Origin: Heyndrickxia coagulans 36D1
GTDB taxonomy: Bacteria; Bacillota; Bacilli; Bacillales; Bacillaceae_C
DNA: 64,000 bases
Assembly (NCBI RefSeq): GCF_000169195.2
Contig: NC_016023.1
Location: forward strand, 1,426,001 to 1,490,000
Reading direction: 5' to 3'
Part shown: positions 39,368 to 59,900 of the stretch, in pieces
Layout of the letters: each line of letters begins with the position of its first letter
Position numbering within the stretch: the first letter of the stretch is position 1
Translations under genes and position numbers: made by a program
The notes under the pieces: generated by a model
What the model was told of the DNA's origin: nothing
The model's input: the letters and a program-made list of their open reading frames with translations, nothing else
The model's database searches: none

Positions 39368-40648
39368 TTATTCGTTTTCCAAATGGAGCACGTTCAGCAG
39401 TTTAAAGAACAGGCTTACGATAATGGCAACGACTGTTGCAAGCCCCATCCCGCTTAATGAGGCGGTGCCGATATTGATCGTTGCGCCGCTTAAGCCAACA
39501 GCGAGAACAAGGCAGGTGAGAATCAAATTTTGCGATTTTCCGTAATCCACTTTTTGTTCGACCAGCATCCTGAGTCCGCTTGCCGCAATGACACCGAACA
39601 AGAGGAGAGAGATGCCGCCCATAACCGGCTGCGGAATCGATGATATGAGCGCCGCCAATTTTCCGCAGAAGGAAAGGATAATGGCGAGAACCGCAGCGCC
39701 GCCGATCACCCATGTGGAGTAGACACGCGTAATCGCGAGCACACCGATATTTTCACCGTACGTCGTATTTGGTGTGGCACCGACAAAACTGGACAGAATC
39801 GTGGAAATGCCGTTTCCGAGCAAAGACCGGTCAAGCCCAGGGTCCTTGGTTAAATCTTTTTTGACAATATTGCCTGTGACGATTAAGTGGCCGATATGTT
39901 CCGGAATGATGACGAGCGCTGCCGGCACGATCATCATGATATCGGACCAGTTCAGTTTGATCGGATAGTACGTCGGCAATGAGATCCAGGCTGCTTCCTG
40001 GACGGGTTTGAGGTCGACAATCCCGAATGCCAGGGAAATCAGGTAGCCGCAAATGATCCCGATTAAGATCGGAATGATTTTAAGAAAGCCGCGCAGGGTA
40101 ACCCAGCAGACCACTGTAATTGCAAGTGTTAATAAGGAAACCGTGATGGTATCAGGGTCCGGGCTCCAGTGTTTTACGGAAGCATCCGTCTGGACAAGGC
40201 CTGCCATCTGTGCCGCAGTCGGGACAAGCTGGAGCCCGATCACGGCCACGATCGCGCCCATTGCAGCAGGCGGAAAGACAACCTCAATCCAGCCCGTGCC
40301 GGCAATTTTAACGATAAGTGCAATGATGACAAGAATAATGCCGACTGCAAGGAATCCGCCCAATGCGTAACTGTATCCGGTAAGGCCCGCATGTTTTGCA
40401 AGAACGGCAAATACCGGCGAGATAAAAGCAAAGCTGGACCCGAGATAGGCCGGGATTTTTCCTTTTGTGATCAGGATATAAAGTAGCGTCCCGATCCCGT
40501 TCATGAATAAAATGGTCGCAGGATCAATTTTAAACAGGACAGGAACGAGAACGGTTGAACCGAACATGGCAAACAAATGCTGAAAACTTAGCGGCAGGCT
40601 TTTGAGAAAAGGTAGTTTTTGGTTAACTTGAATTTCATGCTGTTCCAT
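39368..40648 (-). CDS. uraA: Uracil permease (NCS2 family)
   Basis: 426 residues from the ATG at 40648; the frame runs further upstream through the attenuator and is not coding there. Fourteen membrane segments are predicted. The nucleobase-transporter motifs AMFGSTVLVPVLF, YLGSSFAFISP, VIIPEHIGHL and the substrate region GATPNTTYGENIG are present. It imports uracil with protons. A PyrR-type attenuator precedes it, which assigns it to pyrimidine control and away from xanthine. Confidence 0.92.
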   Translation of the reverse strand: MEQHEIQVNQKLPFLKSLPLSFQHLFAMFGSTVLVPVLFKIDPATILFMNGIGTLLYILITKGKIPAYLGSSFAFISPVFAVLAKHAGLTGYSYALGGFLAVGIILVIIALIVKIAGTGWIEVVFPPAAMGAIVAVIGLQLVPTAAQMAGLVQTDASVKHWSPDPDTITVSLLTLAITVVCWVTLRGFLKIIPILIGIICGYLISLAFGIVDLKPVQEAAWISLPTYYPIKLNWSDIMMIVPAALVIIPEHIGHLIVTGNIVKKDLTKDPGLDRSLLGNGISTILSSFVGATPNTTYGENIGVLAITRVYSTWVIGGAAVLAIILSFCGKLAALISSIPQPVMGGISLLLFGVIAASGLRMLVEQKVDYGKSQNLILTCLVLAVGLSGATINIGTASLSGMGLATVVAIIVSLFFKLLNVLHLENE

Positions 40649-40710
40649 ATTTCTCCCCCTCAATGGATTGGTAAAATGCGAGGCAGGGGTTTTCCAGGAA
40701 GTGCCCTTTT

Positions 40711-40796
40711 GGCAAAAAAAAGCACCTTGCCCGAATGAAAGCAAGGTGCATGGAAGTGCACATTTATCCGGAACCTTGCCAGCCTCACGGGACTGT
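40711..40796 (-). promoter_or_regulatory. PyrR-binding attenuator before uraA
   Basis: On the minus strand, AGTCCCGTGAGGCT (about 40781-40794) matches the PyrR-binding loop consensus. It is followed by GCACCTTGC...GCAAGGTGC (40749-40721) and eight T residues, a strong terminator. The GGCAAGGTTCC next to the PyrR loop can pair with the terminator's 5' arm as an antiterminator. UMP-loaded PyrR would therefore stop uraA transcription. Confidence 0.88.
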
Positions 40797-40963
40797 TTTA
40801 AAGGCATTCATTCATCTTTTGTCCTTGCTATTATGGCAGTTCCAACCGGGTTTGTCAATTCTTATTTTGCATTTGCCAGCTTTGGGACCGCGGGTGCGCC
40901 AAGTATTGTCACCACCGCGCCCCTCTTTCCAGATGCTTTATCGGGTCTGGTTCTGGTTATTTA

Positions 40964-41132
40964 GGGCTTGCTGAATAAGAAAAATTCCTAGCTTTGGCAA
41001 AAATTTAAGTTTGCATTTGAAAGCTGATTCAATGTATAGAGAAGACAGAATCACGCATTTTCGTCGACGAATTCTTCTATATTTTGCTGACAAATGAGTG
41101 CAAATTCAGAATCGGATTCGTTCAGCAAGCCC
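40964..41132. mobile_element. MITE-like element, copy 1 (169 bp)
   Basis: Terminal inverted repeats GGGCTTGCTGAA/TTCAGCAAGCCC, flanked by TA on both sides (40962-40963 and 41133-41134). The subterminal sequences match copy 2 at 43702-43935 in the opposite orientation (TATAGAAGAAT and AAATTCCTAG blocks). It has no gene. The right end joins the first unit of the 52-bp array. Confidence 0.7.
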
Positions 41133-41597
41133 TAACATAGACGGGCTCTATGTGAAGGAAGGCCATCTTTTTTCGTGTTTCCTTAACGTAGCCGGGCTCT
41201 ATGTGAAGAAAGGTTTTCGTTTTTCCTCGCTTTCTTAACGTAGACGCCCTCTATGTTAAGAAAGGGCCTCGTTTTTGCTTGCTTCCTTAACGTAGACAGG
41301 CTCTATGTGAAGAAAGATTGCCTTTTTTCCACGCTTCCTTAACGTAGCCGGGTTCTATGTGGAGGAAGGCCTTCGTTTTTGAGCGTTTCCTTAACATAGA
41401 TGGGCTCTATGTGAAGGAAGGCCGTCAATTTTCCACGCTTCCTTAACATAGCCGGGTTCCATGTAAAGGAAGGCTTTCGTTTTTGCTTGCTTCCTTAACG
41501 TAGACGCATTCTATGTTAAGAAAGACCATCTTTTTTTCGTGTTTCCTTAACATAGCCGGGCTCTATGTGAAGGAAGGCCTTCAACTTTCCACGCTCC
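41130..41597. repeat. Nine-unit tandem array of a 52-bp palindromic repeat
   Basis: Units start near 41130, 41181, 41233, 41285, 41337, 41389, 41441, 41493 and 41545; from the second on the period is exactly 52. Each has an imperfect palindrome of about 33 bp (CTTAACRTAG ... CTATGTKAAG around a GC-rich NCGGGC-type loop) and a 19-base T-rich linker that is itself partly conserved. Units differ by scattered substitutions, many keeping the stem paired. There is no open reading frame through it. A second block lies at 59722-59900. Confidence 0.9.
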
Positions 41598-42015: not shown

Positions 42016-43518
42016 ATGGAAACAATGAATACAAAAAATAGTTCTATCAGGATTGTCCCTTTTTTTGCGGTGATGATGGCTGGCGCACTGGTGGCGTTTT
42101 TAAACCAGACGCTGATTAATGTTGCCCTCCCGCAAATTATGAATCATTTACACATTTCCGCTTCTACGGCAAACTGGCTTTCTACGATTTACATGCTCAC
42201 AAACGGGATTGTCATTCCGGTCACGGCGTACCTTATGAGCCGATTTACAACAAGACAGCTGTTTTTGTTTTCCATTGGGCTGTTTGCGGTGGGGACGCTG
42301 ATTTGTGCAGTCGCACCAGGGTTTTCTGTGCTGCTCATTGGCCGGGTGGTCCAGGCGGCCGGAGCGGGGATTATTTTTCCGCTGGTGACAAACGTCATTT
42401 TCGTGCTATTTCCACCTGACCGGCGCGGTTTTGTAATGGGGATTTTCGGTGTCGCCATGAACTTTGCACCGGCAATCGGGCCGACGCTTTCCGGGTGGAT
42501 TGTGGAAAACCACTCGTGGCGGACACTGTTTTTCATTATTTTGCCGATCGCAATCATTGACTTGATCTTCGCTTTTGTTTTTGTAAAAAATGTGACGGAA
42601 ACGAGCCGGCCGAAACTTGATAAAATCGGTGTTATTTTGTCTTCGCTCGGTTTCGGCGGTATTTTATACGGATTTTCAACCGGCGGCACGAAAGGCTGGG
42701 ACAGTGTGGAAGTAATGACGACGCTGGCAGTCGGGGTGATTGCTTTCGGCTTGTTTGTCTGGCGCCAGTGGGTCATAGACCATCCTATTTTGGAATTCCG
42801 CATTTTTCGTTATCCGGTGTTTACGTTAACGATGGTGATTAATATTATTGTGACGATGGCATTGTTTTCGGGTATGATTTTAATGCCGATTTATATGCAA
42901 AACGTGCGCGGTTTCTCGCCGCTTATGTCCGGGCTGATGCTTTTGCCGGGCGGGGTCATCATGGGAATTATGTCGCCGATTACAGGTCGGCTGTTTGACC
43001 GCTATGGTGCAAAATGGCTTGCTTTAATCGGGCTTGCCATTACCATTGTGACTACTGTTGCATTGACCCGTCTGAAATTGGATACCTCTTTTACTTATGT
43101 CGTCACTATTTATACGATCCGTAGTTTCGGGATTTCTATTTTGATGATGCCAATCTTTACGGCCGGGTTGAATGACCTGCCGCTTGCGATGAATAAATAC
43201 GGCACTGCGATGGTGAACACCTTCAGGATGGTAGCAGGCGCTGTCGGGACGGCCTTTTTTGTCTCGGTCATGACGAATAAAGGGATTGCGCATACGAAGG
43301 ATATTATGGTCTCCAGTCAAATTTCCCCTGCGGATAAAATTCATGCGGCGCTTGCTGCAAGGCAGGGAACGGTGATGGGGATCAATGATGCCTTTATGGT
43401 TGCCACCTACCTGGCTGTGATTGCCTTTATTCTTGCTTTCTTTATCCGGAAAACCATCCCGCGCGACAGCCTTCCGGAAAATACAGCCCAGCAGGTAAAA
43501 CCGATAACGGAATCATAA
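42016..43518 (+). CDS. DHA2-family MFS drug:H+ antiporter (LmrB/EmrB-like)
   Basis: 500 residues with fourteen predicted membrane helices. The first helix carries FLNQTLINVALPQIM, a variant of motif D1. Motif C-type AMNFAPAIGPTLSGWIV is in helix 5, as in antiporters. It exports lipophilic drugs, lincosamide-like in the nearest relatives I recall. GGGGGA precedes ATG 42016; an ATG three codons downstream is possible. A promoter-terminator pair upstream may control it. Confidence 0.9.
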   Translation: METMNTKNSSIRIVPFFAVMMAGALVAFLNQTLINVALPQIMNHLHISASTANWLSTIYMLTNGIVIPVTAYLMSRFTTRQLFLFSIGLFAVGTLICAVAPGFSVLLIGRVVQAAGAGIIFPLVTNVIFVLFPPDRRGFVMGIFGVAMNFAPAIGPTLSGWIVENHSWRTLFFIILPIAIIDLIFAFVFVKNVTETSRPKLDKIGVILSSLGFGGILYGFSTGGTKGWDSVEVMTTLAVGVIAFGLFVWRQWVIDHPILEFRIFRYPVFTLTMVINIIVTMALFSGMILMPIYMQNVRGFSPLMSGLMLLPGGVIMGIMSPITGRLFDRYGAKWLALIGLAITIVTTVALTRLKLDTSFTYVVTIYTIRSFGISILMMPIFTAGLNDLPLAMNKYGTAMVNTFRMVAGAVGTAFFVSVMTNKGIAHTKDIMVSSQISPADKIHAALAARQGTVMGINDAFMVATYLAVIAFILAFFIRKTIPRDSLPENTAQQVKPITES

Positions 43519-50770: not shown

Positions 50771-50880
50771 TAACTTATCCAGAGAGACTGAGGGACAGGC
50801 CCGATGACGTCCAGCAACCTTCAAATCTTTTTTTGAAAGGTGCTAATTCCTGCAGAATGGTTCATTCTGAGAGATAAGTC
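50771..50880 (+). promoter_or_regulatory. SAM-I (S-box) riboswitch
   Basis: The S-box core is clear: the P1 arm TAACTTATC with GATAAGT at the far end, AGAGAGACTGAGGGAC, GGCCCGATGACGTCCAGCAACC split across stems, the AAAGGTGCTAATTCC segment and TCTGAGAGATAAG. With SAM bound, the terminator 13 bp downstream forms and the methionine transporter is shut off. Confidence 0.95.
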
Positions 50881-59721: not shown

Positions 59722-59900
59722 TTTAAGCTGTATGGACTTTACATTAAGAAAGCGGAGGAAATGGGGTCACTTTCTTGACCTAGAGCGCGTCTACGTTGAG
59801 GAAGCGGTGGGAAATGAGGTTCTTCCTTAACCTAGAGGCCGTCTACGTTAAGAAAGCGAATGAAACCGAAGTTCTTCCTTAACATAAATATAGACCGTTT
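59722..59900. repeat. Second block of the 52-bp palindromic repeat (about four units)
   Basis: CTTRAC cores at 59774, 59826 and 59878 are exactly 52 bp apart, and a weaker unit begins near 59722. Each carries the same palindrome as the array at 41130-41597 (CTTAACCTAG ... CTACGTTAAG) but a GAAA/GGAAA-rich linker in place of a T-rich one, as if the block were inverted relative to the first. The last unit decays after its first arm. Confidence 0.8.

Follow-up and report, generated by a model that had tools for sequence, protein, structure and literature searches.

REP and REPIN sequences depend on a RAYT (Y1) transposase and consist of a palindrome with a GTAG-type tetranucleotide at the hairpin foot. 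Dispersed intergenic minisatellites of variable unit number are represented by MIRU-VNTR in mycobacteria and STAR in staphylococci, which are not known to have a two-fold site architecture common to unrelated sequence families. Repeated protein sites make up iterons, parS/ParB-type centromere arrays and mycobacteriophage stoperators, which keep a fixed helical register or are dispersed in many copies. In the Bacillus cereus group, interspersed repeats are known as bcr1-bcr18, to which PMC4666352 refers. The spore-forming lactic acid bacterium Heyndrickxia coagulans 36D1 harbours dozens of non-coding arrays of dyads at a 52-bp spacing, which like bcr1-bcr18 are interspersed repeats of Bacillaceae, and of which no description was found in the open-access literature searched, including passages of PMC3368420, PMC8954581, PMC4892684 and PMC4666352.

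The window, i.e., the whole 64,000-nucleotide stretch of 36D1 DNA that was analysed, contains one such array of nine 52-bp units at 41131..41597 on the forward strand, with the consensus CTTYCTTAACRTAGACGSGCTCTATGTKAAGRAAG followed by a linker with a T5 tract. Exemplified by unit 2 (41182..41208, forward strand), the 27-bp dyad is composed of a 10-bp half-site, a 7-bp centre and a second 10-bp half-site, and recurs at 52-bp steps up to unit 9. The nine palindromic units of the preliminary description were borne out by the fixed point T[CT][CT]ATGT, located at 41147, 41198, 41250, 41302, 41354, 41406, 41458, 41510 and 41562. The period, which had been called exact, is 52 bp in the last seven of the eight intervals and 51 bp in the first, where the end of a MITE adjoins (40961..41135, forward strand, with TTAGGGCTTGCTGAA ... 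TTCAGCAAGCCCTAA ends). Unit 1 is incomplete, its left half-site being formed in part by this MITE end. Tandem Repeats Finder reported the array at 41133-41582 with a period of 52, 0% indels and a score of 459. No ORF of at least 80 aa covers 41131-41597, in agreement with the non-coding character claimed earlier.

The array occupies a divergent gap between an ORF for a uracil/xanthine permease on the reverse strand (39368..40807, the true start being probably further in) and an MFS transporter gene on the forward strand (42016..43518), identified from the ORF list and a Pfam scan. A PyrR binding site lies ahead of the permease, at 40715-40808. Together with a SAM riboswitch at 50772-50880, it was the only Rfam match at gathering score in the whole window, and the array itself had none. 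A second array of the same family, of about three units, two of which pass the unit matrix, is found in the opposite orientation at 59740..59883 on the reverse strand.

As had been proposed in the preliminary description, further units were sought in the 36D1 genome (3,552,226 bases), and their number far exceeds chance. A DNA search with the array returned at least 98 matches (40 of 67 candidates scored), and the core pattern of this family, termed family A, gave 347/365 matches against 0/0 for the reversed-pattern control. In total, 319/335 of the 347/365 matches fell inside 41 loci that were fetched, in which an iterated unit matrix detected 373 units, compared with 0 in the reversed sequence. 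These units form 43 clusters, the largest with 20 units and the smallest with a single one above threshold. Two further diverged arrays outside these 41 loci, at 2578.8k (L107, 16 units counted) and 1145.9k (L108, 7 units), keep the 52-bp spacing throughout, bringing the family-A arrays of 36D1 to at least 45, with more possible beyond the fetched loci. The fixed period therefore recurs elsewhere in the genome, and the array was not found inside a coding gene; the outcomes named in advance as speaking against the preliminary description did not occur, apart from a lack of covariation (see below).

The family-A unit has the consensus CTTYCTTAACRTAG ACGSGCT CTATGTKAAGRAAG followed by a linker with T5, and its core dyad is CTTAACRTAG-N7-CTAYGTNAAG with a linker of 25 bp. 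Conservation per column spans from more than 98% down to about 35%. Within the half-site, GTAG or ATAG lies at the inward-facing end, near the dyad centre, and the foot reads CTTYCTT. The T5 tract occupies the middle of the linker in most family-A arrays and is missing from the diverged ones and from the linkers of families B and C introduced below, indicating that phased A-tract bending is not general.

Selection on spacing, proposed at first for the window array, was corroborated across the genome. Among adjacent family-A spacings of 40-65 bp (43 arrays, 373 units; ten others of 37 and 86-142 bp excluded), 310 of 320 were exactly 52 bp and 318 of 320 were within 1 bp of it. A unit departs from the consensus of its array at about 6.6 of 52 positions, divided into 2.2 of the 30 arm positions and 4.4 of the 22 loop-plus-linker positions (313 units from arrays of at least five units). 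The indel rate in 19 MITE copies from the same loci was 0.16 events per substitution, a ratio that would predict roughly one indel in each family-A unit. Furthermore, 39 array consensuses retain 16-20 of the 20 core positions; outside the core, the two most diverged consensuses retain 15-16 of the other 32. Spacing and half-sites of family A are thus under constraint, and with their conserved half-sites and their constant centre and spacing the arrays have the features expected of protein-binding dyads.

The same pitch is kept with other half-sites. After removal of duplicates from overlapping loci, 17 non-redundant non-A tandem arrays with a period of at least 40 bp were uncovered in the fetched 36D1 loci, of which six had a period of 52, one a period of 53 and another a period of 104 (twice 52), while the other nine had nine different periods. 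All the 52-type arrays but one belong to family B (TGTCYTTTTG-N7-CAAAARGACA) or family C (TGTCYTTCAT-N7-ATGAARGACA), both of which are present in 36D1 and in H. coagulans DSM 1 (G002). Arrays of B and C, some of them mixed, were located at L026 5330-6196, L047 3209-3919, L049 2905-3976, L109 6563-7272, L124 982-1274 and L052 8199-8389. Among B/C spacings of 50-53 bp, 146 of 159 were exactly 52, larger ones of 83, 96 and 103 bp being excluded. The one array left over represents a possible family D (TGTCYAATTA, 52-53 bp; L018 3523-3655 and L131 1613-1718), known from two Tandem Repeats Finder consensus units only, and a matrix seeded for it converged on B/C. Some MITEs are inserted beside the same TCTAATTA sequence as possible family D. 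Other tandem repeats, with periods of 46, 47 and 119, are located at L023 2484-2696, L051 2506-2846 and L018 165-654.

The two halves of a B or C unit agree with each other. Typed at the inner three bases by a 2-of-3 rule, 174 of 175 units from 36D1 and DSM 1 had halves of one type (BB 104, CC 70, CB 1), and strict typing of the same units gave 94 BB, 62 CC and no B/C hybrid, the other 19 deviating by a base. Four units with unlike halves from the relative G003, comprising a three-unit 52-bp array and one stray unit, were left out of the 175. At the Y position, by contrast, the two halves vary freely (TC 54, CC 54, TT 38, CT 27, GC 2), the pair following independence, and from one family to the other the inner bases change together as a block. 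Matching halves with a freely varying Y are as the degenerate recognition of a homodimer would give, rather than RNA pairing. Each of B and C may descend from one symmetric founder, in which case the matching halves would not be 174 independent events. At L026 of 36D1, a block of nine B units is followed by a block of eight C units with the 52-bp register unbroken, and in its DSM 1 counterpart (L132, flank 94.8% identical) eight B units switch to at least 14 C units, again in register. The junction of a second mixed locus measures 50 bp in 36D1 (L109) and is interrupted at 96 bp in DSM 1 (L138). No unit of A, B or C passed the unit-matrix scan in the examined stretches of G001 and G004.

Comparison of unit numbers between strains, another check suggested at the outset, revealed differences at orthologous arrays, namely the B and C blocks of L026/L132 (9 versus 8 and 8 versus at least 14) and L044/L099 (5 versus 4). 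As dispersed tandem units of strain-variable number, the arrays are intergenic minisatellites, sharing their dispersed intergenic location and variable unit number with MIRU-VNTR and STAR. They might have been built neutrally by slippage and unequal exchange, with the length of 52 merely inherited, which would agree with the different orthologous unit numbers and with the higher identity of units within arrays (0.81 at lag 1, 0.75-0.81 at longer lags) than between arrays (0.72). Such an origin is quite improbable in view of the indel deficit relative to the MITE copies, the uneven conservation of the columns and the 52-bp length common to three half-site families.

The arrays are intergenic. 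They are located between convergent genes in 17 of 43 cases, compared with 21 of 126 other gaps at the same loci (p 0.003; gaps from naive ORF calling, the 126 control gaps derived by subtraction), while 21 of the 43 are in co-directional gaps and five, including that of the window, in divergent ones. No function was common to the 30 flanking proteins scanned with Pfam (of 86 listed), several of which had no match, and an NCBIfam scan of eight flanking proteins, three of them new, likewise yielded no shared function. The idea of a shared regulon was dropped on the basis of these sampled proteins. Two neighbours of 1065 aa, considered as a shared mobile gene, turned out to be unrelated, one being an SMC-like ATPase and the other an RND permease.

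The position at gene 3' ends raises the question whether the palindromes act as DNA or as transcribed hairpins, for instance as terminators, sponges or stabilisers of mRNA. Folding of either strand is better than that of shuffled sequences (z -6.3 and -5.3), convergent gaps are favoured, and G-T predominates at pair 10-24 (174 of 373 units), which alone would suit RNA. Low folding energy is nevertheless expected from any palindrome. The preliminary description held that many changes keep the stem, which the 373 family-A units contradict, as the Watson-Crick counts of 14 of 15 arm pairs lie within 11 of the independent-column expectation and pair 3-31 has fewer than expected (145 versus 189). 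At the latter pair (CG 119, CA 109, TG 97, TA 26), C.A is as common as U.G. The covariation anticipated for units outside the window is consequently absent, and compensatory stem changes were found neither in A nor in B/C, where the Y pair is independent. The window array contains no terminator-like site and lacks an Rfam match, and array orientation in co-directional gaps shows no bias (11 same, 10 opposite). With arms free of covariation and orientation unbiased, an RNA-level element is unlikely. The family-A unit appears to be a two-fold protein site on DNA, which fits better than an RNA hairpin; the hairpin or two-fold symmetry suggested earlier is thus retained as a DNA dyad and abandoned as a hairpin.

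The arrays were further compared with DSM 1, whose sequence flanking the window array is about 94-95% identical to that of 36D1. Since the DSM 1 assembly is a draft of 310 contigs, absence was called only where both flanks share one contig. Among 16 family-A loci, the array is absent in DSM 1 at 12 (the window, 261k, 267k, 485k, 495k, 1031k, 1043k, 1805k, 1815k, 2001k, 2228k and 2627k), decayed at two (867k and 2578k) and held at two (1690k, split across two contigs, and 2054k, with four units versus five in 36D1); 1990k, which has no match in DSM 1, and 2631k, which runs off a contig end, were left out of the 16. No unit above 0 bits was detected in the 11 DSM 1 stretches spanning the 12 absent arrays. 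At most absent sites, DSM 1 carries other DNA or lacks part of a flank, so that either strain may have changed, and a clean empty site exists only at 1031k (nearly so at 495k). The arrays turn over fast and are dispensable, and the absence of 12 of 16 implies that any role is not essential. This absence from the DSM 1 draft weakens the nucleoid or chromosome-organising housekeeping role that the preliminary description had considered.

A DNA search for family A in 60 relatives, 36D1 itself counted, gave matches in three (G000, G002 and G003). The core pattern with up to two mismatches occurred in eight of 149 genomes, including 36D1 (G000), G002 (12/12) and G003 (1), and the other five had a single match, a number that the reversed control also reached elsewhere. 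In a further scan, in which each species was represented by a single genome and records near the 36D1 genome may be missing, the exact family-A core was found in nine stretches; three of these belong to DSM 1, and the six lone sites in unrelated bacteria were judged to be chance. No match was found in plasmids searched for A, B and C, in phages searched for family A only, or in viral contigs searched with the A and B patterns. G003 is 95% identical to DSM 1 in the stretch L095 (G003:C20; DSM 1 counterpart L096) and only 81% identical to 36D1 at the locus of the window array, a contrast that may reflect a mosaic genome, recent exchange or an assembly mixture.

MITEs with TTAGGGCTTGCTGAA ends, about 124-238 bp long, are represented in the fetched loci by the window copy and 18 others with both ends. 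MITE sequence occurs within 45 bp of 20 of the 43 arrays, and the junction is often the TA of a half-site; as the other 23 arrays have none within 45 bp, array and MITE are distinct elements. At 1031k the array is carried inside a MITE as cargo, with terminal inverted repeats (TIR) and a target duplication read as AA or AAAT, and DSM 1 shows the empty site. Whether arrays next to a MITE are more often missing from DSM 1 was also considered (8 of 9 MITE-adjacent arrays absent versus 4 of 7 others). Such a link is not claimed, the p value being 0.077 with 1690k counted as MITE-free and weaker with 1690k on the MITE side.

The arrays resemble REP, BIME and REPIN sequences as extragenic palindromes that occur in several families per genome, at gene 3' ends and in tandem clusters. 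They differ from them in their exact 52-bp register, in arms free of pairing constraint and in a foot without GTAG, which the B and C consensus units also lack at that place. The rapid loss of dispensable arrays makes selfish amplification with the same dyads the main rival to a protein-bound array; here dyad and spacing would serve recognition by a copying enzyme, with no role for the host. The spacing would also be kept by an amplifying enzyme that measures out 52 bp, and the preference for convergent gaps, the absence or decay in DSM 1, the several site families in one genome and the matching halves within units could all be accommodated. No near-identical pairs of donor and copy arrays were found. 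The 19 pairs of identical units all lie inside one array each, and the highest array-to-array identity is 90% over five units (overlaps of at least four units compared), demonstrating that the arrays are not recent copies of each other, even though the best match lies in another array for 134 of 368 units. With GTAG or ATAG near the dyad centre instead of the hairpin foot, the selfish repeat is a possible explanation that we regard as somewhat doubtful.

The regularity of the repeats also recalls orphan CRISPR arrays, calls of which are published for 36D1 in PMC8954581. Linker and loop are 69% identical between neighbouring units within an array and are therefore not unique spacers, which leaves a CRISPR origin hardly credible. 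Some of the published calls might in part be miscalled 52-bp arrays.

We give an even chance to the reading that the arrays are operator-like, with putative dimeric DNA-binding proteins as their readers, and that they are dispensable and spread as extragenic repeats. Fixed dyads and a 52-bp pitch in three families, matching halves and a register maintained through a switch of family point to dimers docking on one face of the DNA. Judging from the sequence pattern, a homodimer would bind each 27-bp dyad, its subunits reading the 10-bp half-site and its inverted copy across the 7-bp centre, and the 25-bp linker would place each dimer 52 bp from the next, a distance of about five helical turns, on the same face, where they could contact each other in cooperative stacking. 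Families A (CTTAACRTAG), B (TGTCYTTTTG) and C (TGTCYTTCAT) would presumably have related proteins of equal size as their readers, and the consequence may be that nucleoprotein forms a local block or clamp near gene ends, with any benefit to the host equally conjectural. As extragenic repeats, the arrays vary in unit number between strains, decay in place and, in at least one case, have moved as MITE cargo. The off-register second mixed locus (50 and 96 bp) and the G003 array with unlike halves speak against the operator reading. Unlike iterons, parS sites and stoperators, the arrays are present in dozens on the chromosome, have several specificities and vary between strains, and their protein is putative.

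More tentatively, in-register dyad arrays may constitute a new class of repeat, in which paralogous putative dimers of the same size with different half-sites would form a 52-bp coat, the pitch being inherited while the sequence switches in blocks within an array. Bacterial extragenic repeats are usually defined by sequence, and in the present arrays a geometry, the 10-7-10 dyad at 52-bp pitch, persists longer than the sequence does. For practical purposes, the arrays are candidates for strain markers. They can also interrupt assemblies made from short reads, as in DSM 1, where the relative of the 1690k array forms the end of one contig and the start of another. If a protein family does read them, they would offer a tractable case of co-evolution between site specificity and repeat arrays, and a nucleoprotein structure built from repeats in an industrial and probiotic species.
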